Assembly (NCBI RefSeq): GCF_014647475.1
Contig: NZ_BMPG01000001.1
Coordinates: 992,001-1,056,000, forward strand
Direction of reading: 5' to 3'
Length of the DNA stretch: 64,000 nt
Origin: Halocalculus aciditolerans
Lineage (GTDB): Archaea; Halobacteriota; Halobacteria; Halobacteriales; Halobacteriaceae
Positions within the stretch are counted from its first letter, which is position 1. Each line of letters opens with the position of its first letter. The translations under genes and the position numbers were made by a program. The notes beneath the pieces are model-generated. The model was not told the origin of the DNA. It searched no databases and saw only the letters and a program-made list of their open reading frames with translations. This document shows, piece after piece, positions 7,978-29,460 of the stretch.

Positions 7978-8511
7978 TCAGACGGCGTGGCAGTCGGCGC
8001 AGACGAGCTGGCCGTTGACGTTCGAGAGCGACCCCGCGAGCGACCCGCAGACTTCGCAGATACTCTGCGTGGAGAACGCCCCGTCCTGACCGCCGTCCGT
8101 CGCCTCGGCGCGCGCGCTCTGCGTCGGATTGAGCGGCTCCCGCGGCTCTGCGCCCGCGTCGACGAGGTCGCGCGCCTCCACGAGCCCCCGCACGCCCTCG
8201 TCGTCGCGGACGACGACGTAGCCGACGCCCGTCTGCCGGACGACCTCCGCGGCCTCGCTCACCGCGGCGTCCGGCCGCACGGCCGTCGGCGGCGCGCCCA
8301 TCGCGTCCGCCACTGTCACCCCGTCGAGCGCTCCGACGTGGTCGAGCACGTCGCTCGCGGTCAGAAGGCCGACGACGGACTCGCCGCGGAGGACGAGCGC
8401 CGCGTTCGCGCCCTCCGACCGTAACACGTCTACCGCGCCCGCGAGGTCGTCCGATTCACTCACGCCCACGAACCGCTGACTCGCGACGTCACGCACTGCC
8501 AGTTGTGTCAT
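7978..8511 (-). CDS. CBS-domain protein with C-terminal zinc ribbon
   Basis: This is a 177-residue protein. Two CBS domains cover residues about 8-60 and 68-120 (VGLLTASDVLDHV and VRGLVEARDLVDAG mark their ends). A short linker leads to a one-zinc ribbon, CEVCGSL...LVCADC, at the C-terminus. CBS pairs bind adenine nucleotides or S-adenosylmethionine, and the ribbon suggests a protein or nucleic-acid contact. The target is unknown. It stands alone, divergent from uridine kinase. Confidence 0.88.
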   Translation of the reverse strand: MTQLAVRDVASQRFVGVSESDDLAGAVDVLRSEGANAALVLRGESVVGLLTASDVLDHVGALDGVTVADAMGAPPTAVRPDAAVSEAAEVVRQTGVGYVVVRDDEGVRGLVEARDLVDAGAEPREPLNPTQSARAEATDGGQDGAFSTQSICEVCGSLAGSLSNVNGQLVCADCHAV

Positions 8512-8631
8512 GATTCAACGTACCACGCTCTCCGGCAAAAGCGTGTCCCCGGTAGGCTTAACCCCCGCCACGACCATCCGCCACGCTCGAAAGCGAGGGA
8601 TTCAAACGCGTCTCGCCGCTCTACACCATCG

Positions 8632-9291
8632 ATGACTCTCCCGTCGTTCGCCATCGGCATCGCCGGCGGAACCGGTGCCGGCAAAACCACTGTCGCCCGC
8701 GAAATCACCGAGAACGTCGGTGAATCAGTCACCCTCATCCCCCTCGACAACTACTACGAAGACCTCTCCCACCTCGACTTCGACGACCGGAAAGACGTCA
8801 ACTACGACCACCCCAACGCCTTCGAGTGGGACCTCCTCAACGACCACCTCGACCGACTCCTCTCCGGACAGGCCATCGAGATGCCGCAGTACGACTTCAC
8901 CGAACACCTCCGGCGCGACGACACCCTCCACGTCGAACCCACCGACGTCATCGTCCTCGAAGGGATTCTGGCCCTCTACGACGACGACATCAACGACATG
9001 CTCGACCTCCACATCTACGTCGAAACCGACGCCGACGTCCGCATCCTCCGCCGCATCGAACGCGACGTCGTCCAGCGCGGCCGCGACCTCGAAGGCGTCA
9101 TGGACCAGTATCTCTCCACGGTCAAGCCGATGCACGAACAGTTCATCGAACCCACGAAGAAGAGCGCCGACATCATCATCCCCGAAGGCGCGAACAAGAC
9201 CGCCGTGACGCTCCTCGAGGAGAAAGTCCACGCGGAAACCCGCGGCCTCGACGCCTGGGTCGACCAGGAAGCAGACGGCCTCGGGAACTGA
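8632..9291 (+). CDS. udk: Uridine kinase
   Basis: This is a 219-residue P-loop kinase that phosphorylates uridine and cytidine in pyrimidine salvage. Walker A is GGTGAGKT (residues 12-19, Lys18). PLDNYYEDLSHLDFDDRKDVNYDHPNAFEWDLL is the conserved nucleoside-binding region of Udk, and IVLEGILAL is the Walker-B-like strand. The ATG at MTLPSFAIGI matches the family start; the frame is open further upstream without family similarity. Confidence 0.94.
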   Translation: MTLPSFAIGIAGGTGAGKTTVAREITENVGESVTLIPLDNYYEDLSHLDFDDRKDVNYDHPNAFEWDLLNDHLDRLLSGQAIEMPQYDFTEHLRRDDTLHVEPTDVIVLEGILALYDDDINDMLDLHIYVETDADVRILRRIERDVVQRGRDLEGVMDQYLSTVKPMHEQFIEPTKKSADIIIPEGANKTAVTLLEEKVHAETRGLDAWVDQEADGLGN

Positions 9292-23296: not shown

Positions 23297-24061
23297 GTGA
23301 CGCTCGACATTCTCCTCACGAACGACGACGGCATCGACAGTCCCGGGCTCCACGCGCTCGACGACGCGCTCTCCGAGATCGGGGACGTCACCGTGGTCGC
23401 GCCCGCGGAGAACAAGAGCGCGACGGGGCGCGCGCTCTCCCGGGACGTCGCCGTCACGGAGCGCGAGCGCGGCTACGCGGTCGACGGGACGCCCGCGGAC
23501 TGCGTCATCGTCGGCGTCGAAGCCATCGGCCCCCGCCCGGACCTCGTCGTCGCCGGCTGTAACGCCGGTGCGAACATCGGAACGTACGTCCTCGGGCGTT
23601 CGGGGACGGTCTCCGCGGCGGTGGAAGCGGCGTTCTGCGACGTGCCCGCCATCGCGTCCTCGATGCTCCTCAAGAGCGAGGACTTCCAGCGAACCGTCGA
23701 GAAAGACGAGTACGCGGCCGCGGCGGACGCGACGCGATACCTCGCCGAGCACGCGTTCGACTCCGGCGTCTTCGAGGAAGCGGACTACCTCAACCTCAAC
23801 GCCCCGCACCCCGAGAGCGACGTCCGCGGGATGCGGGTGACCGCGCCCGCGTCCGGCTACGACATGACCGCGAACCACCAGAAGGGCCGCATCAGCATCG
23901 ACGACCGGATGTGGGACCGCATCGACGCCGACGCCATCACCGACCCGGAAGGGACCGACCGCCGCGCGGTCGTCGACGGCTTCCTCTCCGTGTCGCCGCT
24001 CACCGCCCCGCACTCGACGAGCCACCACGACCACCTCGACGCGCTCGTCGCCGACTACTGA
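23297..24061 (+). CDS. surE: 5'/3'-nucleotidase SurE
   Basis: This 254-residue metal-dependent phosphatase removes phosphate from nucleoside monophosphates. ILLTNDDGIDSPG at the N-terminus holds the metal-binding Asp pair; the conserved Asn is in AGCNAGANIG, and SGTVSAAVEAAF is the family signature. It starts with GTG, because the nearest upstream GTG is followed by a stop. It has no close operon partner. Confidence 0.95.
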   Translation: MTLDILLTNDDGIDSPGLHALDDALSEIGDVTVVAPAENKSATGRALSRDVAVTERERGYAVDGTPADCVIVGVEAIGPRPDLVVAGCNAGANIGTYVLGRSGTVSAAVEAAFCDVPAIASSMLLKSEDFQRTVEKDEYAAAADATRYLAEHAFDSGVFEEADYLNLNAPHPESDVRGMRVTAPASGYDMTANHQKGRISIDDRMWDRIDADAITDPEGTDRRAVVDGFLSVSPLTAPHSTSHHDHLDALVADY

Positions 24062-24115: not shown

Positions 24116-24799
24116 ATGCAGGACGCGGTCGTCGACCTCCTCGACGCGAACGCCGAGCACGCACGCGAGTTCGCGGGTCGCTTCGACGACGTGCAGGACG
24201 CCCAGCGGCCCGCCGTCGTGAGCGTCTCCTGTGCGGACTCCCGCGTCCTCCACGACCACGTCTGGGGGAACGACGAACCGGGCCGCGTCTTCACGTGTAG
24301 CAACATCGGGAACCGCGTCTTCCAGCGCGTCGACGGGGAAGACGTCGTCTCCGGCGACGTCCTCTACCCCATCGAACACACGGGAACCGAGGTCGCGGTC
24401 GTCGTCGGCCACACGGGCTGCGGCGCGGTCACCGCGACGTACGACGCCGTCCAGGGGGTCCTCGACGAACCCGCGGGTATCGCGCGCTGCCTCGCCCTCC
24501 TCGAACCCCACCTCGCGCCGGGCGTCGACGCGCTCCCCGACGACCTCGGGCGCGCCGAGCGCATCAACCGCCTCGTGGAGTACAACGTCGACCGGCAGGT
24601 CGACCTCCTCCTCGCCAGCGACGACGTCCCCGACGCCGTGGACGTTCTCGGCGTCGTCTACGACTTTCAGGACGTCTACGACGGGGCGCGCGGGGAGGTG
24701 CACGTCGTCAACGTCGACGGCGAGACCGCGCCGGAGGCGATTCGTGAGGCGCACCCGGCTCTCGCCCACCGCATCGGCCGCCTCTGGACGGACGAATAA
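24116..24799 (+). CDS. Beta-class carbonic anhydrase
   Basis: This 227-residue zinc enzyme interconverts CO2 and bicarbonate. The ligands are Cys39, Asp41-Arg43 (CADSR) and His99/Cys102 (HTGCGAV), all intact. HAREFAGRF and VFTCSNIGNRVF fit the family. It lies 26 nt before an Lrp-type regulator and upstream of dabB-dabA, so a role in inorganic-carbon supply to carboxylases is likely. Confidence 0.94.
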   Translation: MQDAVVDLLDANAEHAREFAGRFDDVQDAQRPAVVSVSCADSRVLHDHVWGNDEPGRVFTCSNIGNRVFQRVDGEDVVSGDVLYPIEHTGTEVAVVVGHTGCGAVTATYDAVQGVLDEPAGIARCLALLEPHLAPGVDALPDDLGRAERINRLVEYNVDRQVDLLLASDDVPDAVDVLGVVYDFQDVYDGARGEVHVVNVDGETAPEAIREAHPALAHRIGRLWTDE

Positions 24800-24825
24800 A
24801 GTAGGCGTGCCGCGCACAACCCTGT

Positions 24826-25311
24826 ATGACCGGCGAAGACATCGACGACGTGGACAAGGCGATTCTGTACGCGTTGCAGGAAGACGCGCGGAACACGTCC
24901 TCGGGTGACATCGCGGAGCGAGCCGGAACGTCCGACAGCACCGTGCGAAAGCGCATCCGGCGGCTCGAATCCGACGGCGTCATCAAGGGGTACAGCGCGC
25001 AGGTCGACTACGAGAAGTCGGGGTATCCGCTCCGGATGCTCCTCTTCTGCACGGCGTCGATTCCGGAGCGCGGCGAACTCGTCCCGGAAATCCTCGCCAT
25101 CGACGGCGTCGTCTCCGTCCAGGAGCTCGTCACGGGCGACGAGAACCTCCTGGTGACGATGGTTGGCGAGTCGGACAGCGACATCACGCTCGTCGCCCAA
25201 GAACTCCTGGAGATGGGGTTGACGGTCACGGACGAGGTGCTCGTTCGGAGTCACGAGACGACGCCGTTCGGCGGGTTCGACCCGGCGGCGCACGCCGAGC
25301 CCGACGGTTAA
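24826..25311 (+). CDS. Lrp/AsnC family transcriptional regulator
   Basis: This is a 161-residue protein. Residues about 5-55 form the winged helix-turn-helix (DKAILYALQEDARNTSSGDIAERAGTSDSTVRKRIRRLE), and residues about 65-150 form the ligand-binding RAM/AsnC domain. It probably binds the palindromic site upstream of dabB, only 70 nt from its own stop. A TATA-like GAATAAAG overlaps the end of the carbonic anhydrase gene, about 29 nt before the ATG, so it can be transcribed on its own. Confidence 0.93.
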   Translation: MTGEDIDDVDKAILYALQEDARNTSSGDIAERAGTSDSTVRKRIRRLESDGVIKGYSAQVDYEKSGYPLRMLLFCTASIPERGELVPEILAIDGVVSVQELVTGDENLLVTMVGESDSDITLVAQELLEMGLTVTDEVLVRSHETTPFGGFDPAAHAEPDG

Positions 25312-25380
25312 CCCGGGCGAAACTCACCCGCCACGCCCCACGTGAACTATTACCATATCCTGCGTCCGCGGCAGTTTTTG

Positions 25381-25425
25381 CGAACGATTCGTTCGGTTGA
25401 GAAAGATTAATTACCGAGTCGTTCG
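25381..25425 (+). promoter_or_regulatory. Candidate promoter and operator of dabBA
   Basis: A perfect palindrome CGAACGATTCGTTCG (25381-25395) is followed by an AT-rich box TTAATTA (25407-25413) and a second TCGTTCG half site (25419-25425). The two TCGTTCG copies are exactly 30 bp apart, three helical turns, and flank the TATA-like box. This is a plausible site for the adjacent Lrp-type regulator. The leader to the dabB ATG would be about 35 nt. Confidence 0.55.
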
Positions 25426-25441
25426 TCCAATGCGGTAGACC

Positions 25442-25463
25442 GGCCGGTGCGGCGCGACCGGCC
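25442..25463 (+). promoter_or_regulatory. Hairpin in the dabB leader
   Basis: GGCCGGT (25442-25448) and ACCGGCC (25457-25463) form a perfect 7-bp stem with an 8-nt GC-rich loop. It ends 11 nt before the dabB start codon. It could affect translation initiation or mRNA stability. No alternative partner sequence was noticed. Confidence 0.4.
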
Positions 25464-25474
25464 ACGACCGATCG

Positions 25475-26959
25475 ATGACGAAGGAACACACGCCCGTCGA
25501 ACCGCTCTCGCCCCCGACGACCGACGACGACGCGCTCCCGCGGGCGCTGACGCGACTCGTCTGGGCGCTGTGGCTCGCGAGCGTCGTCGTCCTCGGCGCG
25601 CGCCTCTGGACCGGCGCGGACCTGACGCTCGGCGGCGTCCTCCGCGTGGACGGCCTGACCGCCGTGATGTGGGTCGCGGTCACCTTCTTCAGCGGCGTCG
25701 TCTACAGCTACTCGCGGCGCTACATGGCGGGCGACGCGAACGTCGACCGCTTCTTCGCCACGCTCGCCGCGTTCACCGCGTCCGTACTGGTGCTCGTCTC
25801 CGCCGACCACCTCCTCGTCTTCCTCGCCGCCTGGACCGCGATGGGTCTCGCGATGGCCCGCCTCATCGGCCACGTCGACGACTGGGAGAGCGCGCACGCC
25901 TCGGCCGCGCTCGCCCGCCGGTACTTCCTCGGCGGGAGCGGCCTCCTCGCTCTCGCGTTCGGCGCGCTCTGGTGGACGACCGGCGCGACCACCGTCTCCG
26001 GGGTCGCCGCCGCCATCGCGACGCTCCCGGAGTCCGTCGTCCTCGCCGTCGGCGGCGCGCTCGTCCTCGCCGCGATGGTGCAGTCCGCCCTCGTCCCCTT
26101 CCACCGCTGGCTCCTCTCCTCGATGACCGCGCCGACCCCCGCGTCCGCGCTCATGCACGCCGGCTTCGTCAACGCCGGCGGCGTCCTCCTCGTCCGCTTC
26201 GCTCCCGTCGTCACCGCCGACGACGCCCTCCCGCTCCTCGTCGTTCTCATCGGTGCCGCGAGCGCGCTGACCGGGAAACTCCTGAAGACCGTTCAGCCCG
26301 ACGTGAAGGGCGCGCTCGGCTGCTCGACCGTCGGCCAGATGAGCTTCATGCTCATGCAGGCCGGCCTCGGCTTCTTCGCCGCCGCGCTCACCCACCTCGT
26401 CCTCCACGGCTTCTACAAGGCCTATCACTTCCTCTCCGCCGGCGGCGCGGTCGCCCGCGAAGCACCGGAGACGGCGACGGAGCGTTCGGCCGAGCGCTCG
26501 TCGAGCGCCGTCACGCTCCTCGTCGTCGCCCTCACCGGCCTCGTCGGCGGCGGCGTGTTCGCCCTCCTCACCGGCGAAGGGACCGAGGGCGGCAGCGGCC
26601 TCCTGCTCGTGCTCCTCGTCGTCCTCACCGTCCTGCAGGCCGCGCGCGACGTCGCCGCGCGCGCCGACCTTCCGGCCGCGATTCGGTACGCCGGCGTCCC
26701 GCTCGTCGCCCTCCCCGCCATCGGCGTCTACGCCGGCGTCTACACCGTCGTCCACGGGCTCCTCGCCGGCCTGCCCGGCGTCGGCCACCCGGAGCCGCTG
26801 ACGCCCGTCCACGGCGTCGTCGCCGCCGCCTTCCTCGTCGTCTACCTCGCCGTCGAGACCGGCCTCTACCGGTGCAGCGCCCGGCTCTACGTCGCACTCC
26901 TGAACGCGGCGCGGCCGAGCGCCGGGACGCTCCTCACCGACACGGAGGACTACCAATGA
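25475..26959 (+). CDS. dabB: DabB: proton-conducting subunit of inorganic-carbon uptake system
   Basis: This is a 494-residue membrane protein of the NuoL/MrpA (complex I subunit 5) family with about 13 helices. Typical features are FFSGVVYSYSRRYMAGD, the conserved Lys/His residues in ALVPFHRWLLSSMTAPTPASALMHAGFVNAGG, and HLVLHGFYKAYHFLSAGG. The gene overlaps dabA by 4 nt. In bacteria DabB couples ion flow to DabA; here the same pair is preceded by a carbonic anhydrase and a regulator, so the same role is inferred. An NADH dehydrogenase role is unlikely because no other nuo genes are near. Confidence 0.9.
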   Translation: MTKEHTPVEPLSPPTTDDDALPRALTRLVWALWLASVVVLGARLWTGADLTLGGVLRVDGLTAVMWVAVTFFSGVVYSYSRRYMAGDANVDRFFATLAAFTASVLVLVSADHLLVFLAAWTAMGLAMARLIGHVDDWESAHASAALARRYFLGGSGLLALAFGALWWTTGATTVSGVAAAIATLPESVVLAVGGALVLAAMVQSALVPFHRWLLSSMTAPTPASALMHAGFVNAGGVLLVRFAPVVTADDALPLLVVLIGAASALTGKLLKTVQPDVKGALGCSTVGQMSFMLMQAGLGFFAAALTHLVLHGFYKAYHFLSAGGAVAREAPETATERSAERSSSAVTLLVVALTGLVGGGVFALLTGEGTEGGSGLLLVLLVVLTVLQAARDVAARADLPAAIRYAGVPLVALPAIGVYAGVYTVVHGLLAGLPGVGHPEPLTPVHGVVAAAFLVVYLAVETGLYRCSARLYVALLNAARPSAGTLLTDTEDYQ

Positions 26960-29460
26960 CTACTGACACCGCAGTCGAGGAGAGCATCGACGCGGCCGCC
27001 GACGCGGTCGGCTCCGCGTGGCCGATTCACTCGTTCGTCACTGCGAACCCGCTCGCGGGCTTCGAGGACCGGCCGTTCCACGAGGCCGTCGCCGCCGGCG
27101 AACGCCGCCTCGACGGCGACGGCTACCCCAGCGCCGACACCTTCCGCAATGCCTGGGAAGCCGGCGAAATCGACGGCGACGAGCTCCGCGACCGCCTGAC
27201 CGACGCCGGCTACGCCCCCGACCCCGAGGCCGCGCTCGACCGGCTCGCCGACGCCGAATCCGAAGCGACGACCACCAACACGACCGACGCCGCCACGACC
27301 GACGCCGACGCCGAGACGGCGACTGACCGCGTCGACGCGGTCGTGTCGAAGTGGCTCGCCGCCTTCCTCGACGAGGGCCGCGCGGAGTGGCCGATGCCGA
27401 ACCGGAGTCAGGGGTTCTACGCGGCGTTCCGGACCGTCGCCCCCCACGACGGCGACATCCCCGGGCGCGACGCGCTCGCCGACCTCCCGGACGACCCCTT
27501 GGACGCGATTCGCGACGCGCTCGCGGACGTGCCCGTCGGAGAGTGGCGGGACGTCTTCGAGTACCACCTCACCGCGCTCCCCGGCTGGACGGGGTTCGTC
27601 AAACACCGCGCCGAGGCCGACGGCGACTGGCAGGAGGCACACCCAATCACGCTCGGAGGCTACCTCGCCGTCCGCCTCGCGCTCGTCGACCGCTTCGACG
27701 CCCCGCTCACCCCCGAGGACGCGGACGCGCCCGCGGCCGACGACCCCGACGAGTCCGGCGAGTCCGGCGTGCCGCTCGCCCACGCGTGGCTCGCCGCCTG
27801 GGAGGCCACCTACCGCGACTCCCTCACCGACGCCGTCGCCGCCGAGAGCGCCGCACTCGCCGATACGGGAGCAGGCGAAGACGGGAGCGACGGGGAGCGC
27901 CCGGACGCCCAACTCGTCTTCTGTATCGACACGCGCTCGGAGATTCTCCGCCGGCACGTCGAGGAAGCGGGGGACTACGAGACCTACGGCTACGCGGGCT
28001 TCTTCGGCGTGCCGATGCGCTTCGAGGGGTACGACGCCGCGCTCGCGACCGACGCCTGCCCGCCGATCGTCGACGCCGAACACTACGTCGCCGACCGCCC
28101 GCGCCCGGAGGATGCAGAGACGCACGAGACCGCCGAATCGCGCCGGAGCCTCCTCGAAGCCGGCGCGGAAACTATCGAGGACCTCCGGAAGAACGCGGCG
28201 ACCGCGTTCAGCTTCGTCGAGAATACTGGTGTTGCCTACGGCGCGGCGCTCGCCGCGCGGACGCTCCTCCCCAACCGCGTCTACGACGCCCTCGAACGCG
28301 TCGACGACCGCGTGCCCGACGCCCACGAGTTCTGCGAGCCCACCGTCGACTACAACCCCGACGGCGTCCACGGCCTCCGCGAGGGCCTCACACGCGACGA
28401 ACAGGTCGAGTACGCCGCGAACGCGTTCGAGCTCATGGGCCTCACCGATCTCTCCCGGCTCGTCGTCTTCACCGGCCACGCGAGCGACACGACGAACAAC
28501 CCCTTCGATTCCAGTCTCGACTGCGGCGCGTGCGCCGGCAACCCCGGCGGCCCGAACGCCCGCGTGCTCGCCGCCATCTGTAACGACGACGCCGTACAGC
28601 GGGAACTCCGCGAGCGCGGCATCGACATCCCCGAGGATACCGTCTTCCTCGCCGCCGAACACGACACCACCACGGACGCCGTCGAACTCTACGACGGTGA
28701 CGTCCCCGAGACCCACGCCGACGACGTCGAATCCCTCCGCGCCGACCTCGCGACCGCTCAGGCGGACGCGGCCGCCGAACGCGCCCGCGACATGGGCGTC
28801 GACATCGACGAATCCGACGCCGGGACGGGTGTTCGCGAGGTCGAGCGCCGCGCCGCCGACTGGGCGGAGACACGGCCGGAGTGGGGGCTCGCCGGGAACG
28901 CCGGCCTCGTCGTCGGCCCGCGCGCTCTCACCGACGACCTCGACCTCGACGGCCGCGTCTTCCTCCACTCCTACGACTGGACGACGGACGAGAGTGGAGA
29001 GGCGCTCGCCGCCATCTTCGCCGGCCCGCTCGTCGTCACCCAGTGGATTAACACGCAGTACTACTTCGCCGCCGTCGACAACGCCGCCTACGGCAGCGGG
29101 TCGAAAATCACGCAGAACCCCGTCGGGAACGTCGGCGTCTATCAGGGGAACGGCGGCGACCTCCGCACCGGCCTCCCGCGCGAGTCACTCTTCGCCGCCG
29201 ACGGCACCCCCTACCACCGCCCGCTCCGCCTCTCCGCCGTCGTCCACGCGCCCAGAGAACAGGTGCGCGACGCCGTCGCCGCGAACGAAACTGTCGCTGC
29301 ACTGCTCGGCAACGAGTGGCTCTCGCTCACCGTCGTCGACCCGACCCGCGACCACCGCGCCTTCCGCTACGAAACCGAGGGCTGGACGCCGCTCGATGAG
29401 GAAAAGACCGCCGAGCCGACCGCGAAGGGAGCCCCGACGCCGAGCGTCGCCGACGACTGA
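26956..29460 (+). CDS. dabA: DabA: zinc-dependent inorganic-carbon uptake protein (DUF2309)
   Basis: This 834-residue peripheral protein is related in its zinc site to beta-carbonic anhydrases. The predicted ligands are Cys323 and Asp325 (FCIDTRSE), His508 (TGHASDT) and Cys523 (DCGACAG); the His-Cys spacing of 15 matches the characterised DabA. IHSFVTANPLAGFEDRPF at the N-terminus and QWINTQYYFAAVDNAAYGSGSK near the C-terminus are family hallmarks. It is thought to hydrate CO2 in one direction while DabB supplies energy. The reading frame extends further upstream across dabB, but the ATG overlapping the dabB stop is the real start. Confidence 0.93.
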   Translation: MTTDTAVEESIDAAADAVGSAWPIHSFVTANPLAGFEDRPFHEAVAAGERRLDGDGYPSADTFRNAWEAGEIDGDELRDRLTDAGYAPDPEAALDRLADAESEATTTNTTDAATTDADAETATDRVDAVVSKWLAAFLDEGRAEWPMPNRSQGFYAAFRTVAPHDGDIPGRDALADLPDDPLDAIRDALADVPVGEWRDVFEYHLTALPGWTGFVKHRAEADGDWQEAHPITLGGYLAVRLALVDRFDAPLTPEDADAPAADDPDESGESGVPLAHAWLAAWEATYRDSLTDAVAAESAALADTGAGEDGSDGERPDAQLVFCIDTRSEILRRHVEEAGDYETYGYAGFFGVPMRFEGYDAALATDACPPIVDAEHYVADRPRPEDAETHETAESRRSLLEAGAETIEDLRKNAATAFSFVENTGVAYGAALAARTLLPNRVYDALERVDDRVPDAHEFCEPTVDYNPDGVHGLREGLTRDEQVEYAANAFELMGLTDLSRLVVFTGHASDTTNNPFDSSLDCGACAGNPGGPNARVLAAICNDDAVQRELRERGIDIPEDTVFLAAEHDTTTDAVELYDGDVPETHADDVESLRADLATAQADAAAERARDMGVDIDESDAGTGVREVERRAADWAETRPEWGLAGNAGLVVGPRALTDDLDLDGRVFLHSYDWTTDESGEALAAIFAGPLVVTQWINTQYYFAAVDNAAYGSGSKITQNPVGNVGVYQGNGGDLRTGLPRESLFAADGTPYHRPLRLSAVVHAPREQVRDAVAANETVAALLGNEWLSLTVVDPTRDHRAFRYETEGWTPLDEEKTAEPTAKGAPTPSVADD

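Follow-up and report, generated by a model that had tools for sequence, protein, structure and literature searches.

The window analysed here, a stretch of 64,000 nucleotides from the haloarchaeon Halocalculus aciditolerans, carries consecutive genes for a beta-carbonic anhydrase (CA), an Lrp/AsnC regulator, DabB and DabA, all read as open reading frames on the plus strand. This raises the question of which of the four genes belong together and how they would be controlled. An earlier note on this DNA had proposed that all four form an inorganic-carbon module. We consider it probable that DabBA, a private Lrp regulator and an operator of its own constitute a dedicated, regulated bicarbonate-supply unit, with the CA as an optional neighbour. 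It would combine a DIC pump of a known kind with a dedicated regulatory circuit that has not been described before. The case is built on sequence, namely on gene identities, active sites, the Lrp-dabBA linkage, the conservation and genome-wide specificity of the operator, and co-inheritance.

The DabAB pair has already been predicted for haloarchaea in the passages found (PMC8305020, PMC10880623). HVO_2410/HVO_2411, the dabAB genes of Haloferax volcanii, belong to the same family and were predicted as a CO2 transporter pair; the passages found contain the prediction of the pair only and describe neither a regulator nor an operator nor a relation to CA (PMC8305020). A literature search, mostly without subscription papers, returned no haloarchaeal account of an Lrp regulator dedicated to dab, of its operator or of how CA and dab are related. 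With one regulator, one operator and one transport operon, the family annotation would become a testable circuit in tractable hosts such as Haloferax.

Gene identities and gene order

The four genes of the window are:

24116-24799, plus strand: beta-carbonic anhydrase, 227 aa (Pfam Pro_CA, E=5e-24); probably an optional neighbour, not part of the module core
24826-25311, plus strand: Lrp/AsnC-type regulator, provisional name DabR, 161 aa (HTH_AsnC-type, E=1e-12)
25475-26959, plus strand: dabB, NuoL-like membrane subunit, 494 aa (Proton_antipo_M, E=3e-36)
26956-29460, plus strand: dabA, cytoplasmic beta-CA-like subunit, 834 aa (Pfam DabA, E=4e-255)

Open reading frames and Pfam families agree with the positions and identities given in the earlier note, and the four-gene observation is confirmed, far beyond chance. 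DabA matches PF10070 with 849 bits across residues 1-747, a full-length match that includes the Zn ligands and the Asp-Arg dyad. DabB is a NuoL/Proton_antipo_M subunit encoded directly before dabA, with the proton-path Ser, His and Lys residues present, and by sequence the two can be assigned confidently to the DabB and DabA families. The regulator contains an AsnC-type HTH domain. The CA carries the C-x-D-x-R and H-x2-C motifs in a canonical active site (C39-x-D41-x-R43, H99-x2-C102), so that its zinc ligands are intact as described before, and the dabB-dabA overlap that had been reported is a shared ATGA. Using profile searches of the organism's own genome, we found a single copy of DabA and a single Pro_CA gene, which is the one in the window. 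The gap between CA and lrp is 26 bp. A SurE nucleotidase gene (window 23297-24061) is found close to the dab unit and in the same orientation, as it is in the relatives L050, L052, L055, L057 and L118.

For comparison, 120 haloarchaeal dabA neighbourhoods (L047-L166) were annotated by means of profiles that derive from the proteins of the window. The order Lrp-dabB-dabA was found on one strand in 118 of them, and the other two start at a contig end. The full order CA-Lrp-dabB-dabA, whose conservation in relatives had been suggested as a check of the module, occurs in only four of the 120 loci, three from the family of the window organism and one from another; the conserved unit is Lrp-dabB-dabA. 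At about 25 loci (e.g. L076, L095, L105 and L147) Lrp and dabB have an amidohydrolase gene of opposite orientation between them. Within the same phylum, a sample of 315 genomes gave 31 dabA matches, all in haloarchaea and none outside Halobacteria.

Conserved residues and the probable mode of transport

DAB2 (DabA2/DabB2) of Halothiobacillus neapolitanus, whose structure has been solved (PDB 9rd0), shares with the window system its two subunits, fold families, Zn ligands, Asp-Arg dyad, finger-motif Glu and proton-path residues (PMC13144422). Cys323, Asp325, His508 and Cys523 of the window DabA, to which the earlier note had drawn attention, are present and align with the Zn ligands C351/H524/C539 and with D353 of DabA2. 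The window protein thus has the Zn ligands C323/H508/C523, the dyad D325-R327, the finger-motif residue E422, which corresponds to E444 of H. neapolitanus, and L645. Across the 120 haloarchaeal loci C323, D325, R327, S328, E422, H508, C523, H569, D574 and L645 are invariant, and the same holds for all seven DabB proton-path residues, which are kept in the window as S224, H228, K278, S284, H307, H311 and K315. In H. neapolitanus, DAB2 mutants in C351, D353, R355, H524, C539, E444 and the seven DabB proton-path residues have been demonstrated to be defective (PMC13144422).

None of these mutation-sensitive residues, whether of active site, finger motif or proton path, varies among the 120 haloarchaeal proteins, and we therefore infer transport activity in the form of a vectorial hydration of CO2 that is driven by the membrane gradient. 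The membrane-bound, NuoL-like DabB and the Zn-containing, beta-CA-like DabA would together act as a vectorial carbonic anhydrase, in which, as judged from DAB2, an ion gradient across the membrane drives the hydration of CO2 to cytoplasmic bicarbonate. The earlier reading of DabAB as an inorganic-carbon system is therefore supported at the level of the mutagenised catalytic and proton-path residues, all of which are kept.

In contrast to DAB2, the window system belongs to a haloarchaeal heterotroph, appears to have a dedicated Lrp-type regulator with a putative operator, and its DabB lacks the transmembrane ion pair K235/D185 of DabB2, for which it has Q203 and S155. The position of Lys235 (TM7 in DabB2) is Gln in 119 of the 120 loci, and that of Asp185 is Ser, Thr, Gly or Ala. 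Substitutions at this pair reduce the function of DAB2 and do not abolish it (PMC13144422), which indicates that the ion pair is a variable and not a defining feature of DabB. A relative from Falsiroseomonas likewise has Gln at the Lys235 position, so the missing pair marks a DabB subtype and not a haloarchaeal invention. As the pair tunes bacterial DabB2, its absence may mean that ion coupling differs in haloarchaea.

MpsAB of Staphylococcus aureus supplies DIC in another heterotroph, and CA and the transporter are alternative DIC supplies in staphylococci, as our genome counts suggest for haloarchaea; for MpsAB, however, Na+ symport has been proposed (PMC6689103, PMC8552792). DabAB could be an MpsAB-like Na+/bicarbonate symporter instead of a proton-driven CO2-hydrating enzyme, with the Na+ gradient as the natural driver at high Na+. 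The Na+-rich habitat and the loss of the K235/D185 pair would fit this, and bacterial MpsAB has been argued to be Na+-dependent (PMC13144422). We regard it as unlikely, since the invariant Zn and Asp-Arg residues of DabA and the seven proton-path residues of DabB fit H+-coupled CO2 hydration and DAB2 itself is Na+-independent (PMC13144422).

The dabB promoter element and the Lrp-type regulator

Between lrp and dabB (25381-25425) we found a palindromic promoter element that is absent from the earlier note. Its parts, and a further element in front of lrp, are:

24794-24802, plus strand: TATA-like element gaataaagt of a probable leaderless promoter of lrp (from the A/T profile); the element overlaps the stop codon of the CA gene
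25381-25395, no strand assigned: upstream operator element, the perfect 15-bp palindrome CGAACGATTCGTTCG, directly 5' of the TATA region; putative Lrp dimer site
25405-25415, plus strand: gattaattacc, region of the dabB TATA box, flanked by the two operator elements (from the alignment of 118 loci)
25421-25425, no strand assigned: downstream operator half-site GTTCG, at the invariant 39-bp GAAC-GTTC spacing

The same 43-bp architecture, which consists of (C)GAAC-N5-G, a TATA box (TTTAATA or CTATAATA) and GTTC, is present in 118 of 119 regions upstream of dabB, and the spacing of 39 bp from GAAC to GTTC does not vary. When the 120 loci were scanned with a position weight matrix (4.03 million positions), 115 of 121 matches lay upstream of dabB and the remaining six in or beside the same lrp-dabB intergenic region. 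The palindrome alone, CGAAC-N5-GTTCG, was rejected as a definition of the operator; it occurs 79 times in the organism's own genome, mostly with GC-rich centres, and specificity therefore rests on the entire 43-bp element, of which the spaced pattern occurs once in that genome.

A sequence-only operator model derived from 35 sites was then run on 392 Halobacteria genomes. It matched 236 of them, nearly always with one site per genome. A site was found in 234 of 240 genomes with dabA and in two of 152 without (Fisher p=3e-98, a value that ignores shared ancestry), where both matches were weak (E>0.003). The Lrp orthologue follows the same distribution, with 235 of the 240 and one of the 152 genomes by profile search; orthologues were called at E below 1e-80, the next paralogues scored 1e-58 or weaker, and a clear gap separates 1e-81 from 1e-58. 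Shared ancestry among the genomes makes the p-values for co-inheritance illustrative only. The co-inheritance of the Lrp with dab argues against a generic amino-acid regulator, and we infer that, by binding the operator, it acts as a dedicated one-target regulator (DabR) at the dabB promoter; the sign of regulation and the signal proposed below follow from the same kind of reasoning. We know of no Lrp partner named for staphylococcal MpsAB.

The element could also be read by another factor or be merely an optimised strong promoter, while the neighbouring Lrp controls something else. The assignment of the Lrp to the operator comes from sequence comparison, and the sites of archaeal Lrps, which are usually degenerate, are difficult to predict (PMC2995911). 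We consider this quite improbable, given that a 15-bp palindrome with a half-site beyond the TATA box is unlike TATA/BRE features, that no further strong site was found in the dab neighbourhoods or in most genomes, and that Lrp, site and dabA co-occur, whereas G205 and G272, two genomes with weak or partial dabA matches, have neither Lrp nor site.

The preferred reading is that of a private Lrp-type regulator, produced from its own leaderless promoter just 5' of dabBA. A profile over 117 loci shows an A/T peak at -27/-26 of the lrp start, and transcription of lrp from such a promoter is probable. The Lrp would bind on both sides of the dabB TATA box, at the palindrome GAAC-N5-GTTC and at the half-site GTTC, and would switch dabBA and probably no other target in the genome. 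Most likely it represses. LrpA of P. furiosus represses by blocking RNA polymerase from a site just downstream of the TATA box (PMC2995911), and the sites on either side of the TATA box, one of them just downstream, resemble this arrangement. Repression would be relieved under shortage of CO2 or bicarbonate. That the Lrp is instead an activator of dabBA, with the upstream palindrome as a UAS as for Ptr2, is a serious possibility to which we give slightly less than even weight: the best-conserved palindrome lies directly 5' of the TATA region, the usual position for an activator, and both activators and dual regulators are known among archaeal Lrps, but the invariant GTTC half-site lies just 3' of the TATA box, where LrpA of P. 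furiosus represses (PMC2995911).

The regulator shares the winged HTH, a predicted beta-alpha-beta-beta-alpha-beta domain and a putative palindromic site near the TATA box with the archaeal Lrps LrpA, Ptr2 and FL11 (PMC2995911). It differs from them in that it apparently has one target per genome and in its effector half, since neither the window Lrp nor any of 45 orthologues matched the AsnC ligand-binding domain in a Pfam scan. An AlphaFold model of low confidence (pLDDT 58) gives the winged HTH and the order of elements typical of Lrp proteins. C75, R82, Q99, E100, T103, G104, N107, D117, T121, D136, E137 and H143 of the effector half are near-invariant. We tentatively suggest, as a possibility that falls well short of even, that Lrp-family regulators with this diverged, near-invariant effector domain are a hitherto undescribed class of archaeal inorganic-carbon sensors, which sense CO2/bicarbonate or a close proxy and act on the single promoter of dabBA across Halobacteria. 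Work on the regulator may lead to a sensor of CO2/bicarbonate in archaea.

Two other loci were noted. In one genome (G128, L196 6007-13006) the Lrp orthologue is kept in the absence of dabA and beta-CA; it is surrounded by genes for UspA, a CooC-like ATPase and the catalytic subunit of an anaerobic CO dehydrogenase, and by a NarK-like MFS gene that is preceded by an operator-like site. A possible Lrp next to dab in Falsiroseomonas (L261) was rejected, as the translation before dabB reads as LysR-type by eye, and the Lrp-dab link therefore looks haloarchaeal. At the same locus of Falsiroseomonas bella, a small gene after dabA (8354-8704) appears PII-type-like by eye.

Carbonic anhydrase beside the dab unit

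If degenerate copies are counted, 49 of the 120 loci have a beta-CA reading frame no more than 2 kb from the dab unit, on one side of it or the other and in either orientation. At least four arrangements of position and strand were found in several families, and ten of the copies counted sit inside the dab unit and have lost their catalytic residues. Linkage that recurs in such varied forms suggests a functional attraction, but not a fixed operon.

Among the 392 Halobacteria genomes, Pro_CA is present in 352 and dabA in 240. We found dabA in 36 of the 40 genomes without CA and in 204 of the 352 with CA (p=5e-5, shared ancestry ignored). Within the family of the window organism, all ten genomes without dabA have CA, while eight of the 13 with dabA do not (p=0.003, again ignoring shared ancestry). 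Presence of a gamma-CA could explain the four genomes that lack both. Over the 392 genomes, CA and dabA seem to behave more like alternatives, the beta-CA being a separate and partly interchangeable bicarbonate supply.

The dab operator is absent upstream of the CA in the window and of most dab-linked CAs, and the idea that the window CA shares this operator was not supported. The lrp gene has a TATA box of its own and thus need not share a transcript with the CA; together with the missing operator this makes co-regulation of the CA improbable. For the CA as a module member, as the earlier note had it, the physical linkage is thus real and recurrent, but the absence of an operator and the genome counts speak against it. 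The four genes could still be one co-regulated unit in which CA works with DabAB, for example by equilibrating imported bicarbonate to CO2 for CO2-using carboxylases. Linkage within 2 kb in so many arrangements is hard to explain without a functional pull, and the CA-lrp gap in the window is short. We nevertheless judge such a unit very unlikely: the exact order is rare, the operator is missing upstream of the window CA and of most linked CAs, lrp has its own TATA box, CA-less genomes keep dabA, and co-expression of CA and MpsAB brought no benefit in staphylococci, where the two are interchangeable (PMC8552792).

It has been argued that having both a CA and a bicarbonate importer is hard to justify, because the CA reconverts imported bicarbonate to CO2; free cytoplasmic CA should short-circuit the accumulated pool (PMC8552792). 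In the window organism, both are present side by side. The adjacent beta-CA would be a second source of bicarbonate, in part interchangeable with the dab unit, beside which it tends to be placed, here with no shared operator. This raises the question why heterotrophs keep a bicarbonate pump and a CA, often next to each other, although theory says that one undoes the other.

CA-like genes were also seen between Lrp and dabB (L069, L080, L104, L105, L108, L110, L115, L119, L131, L138, L161 and L164; in L164 the contig begins before any Lrp, and the gene is upstream of dabB). These paralogues directly 5' of dabB have lost the Asp-Arg dyad (C-x-Met/Leu for C-x-Asp) and kept the His/Cys Zn ligands, the copy in L110 being truncated there. 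Most of them carry their own CGAACGCTTCGGTAA-type site, and the paralogue is probably a Zn protein without catalytic function that belongs to the Dab regulon.
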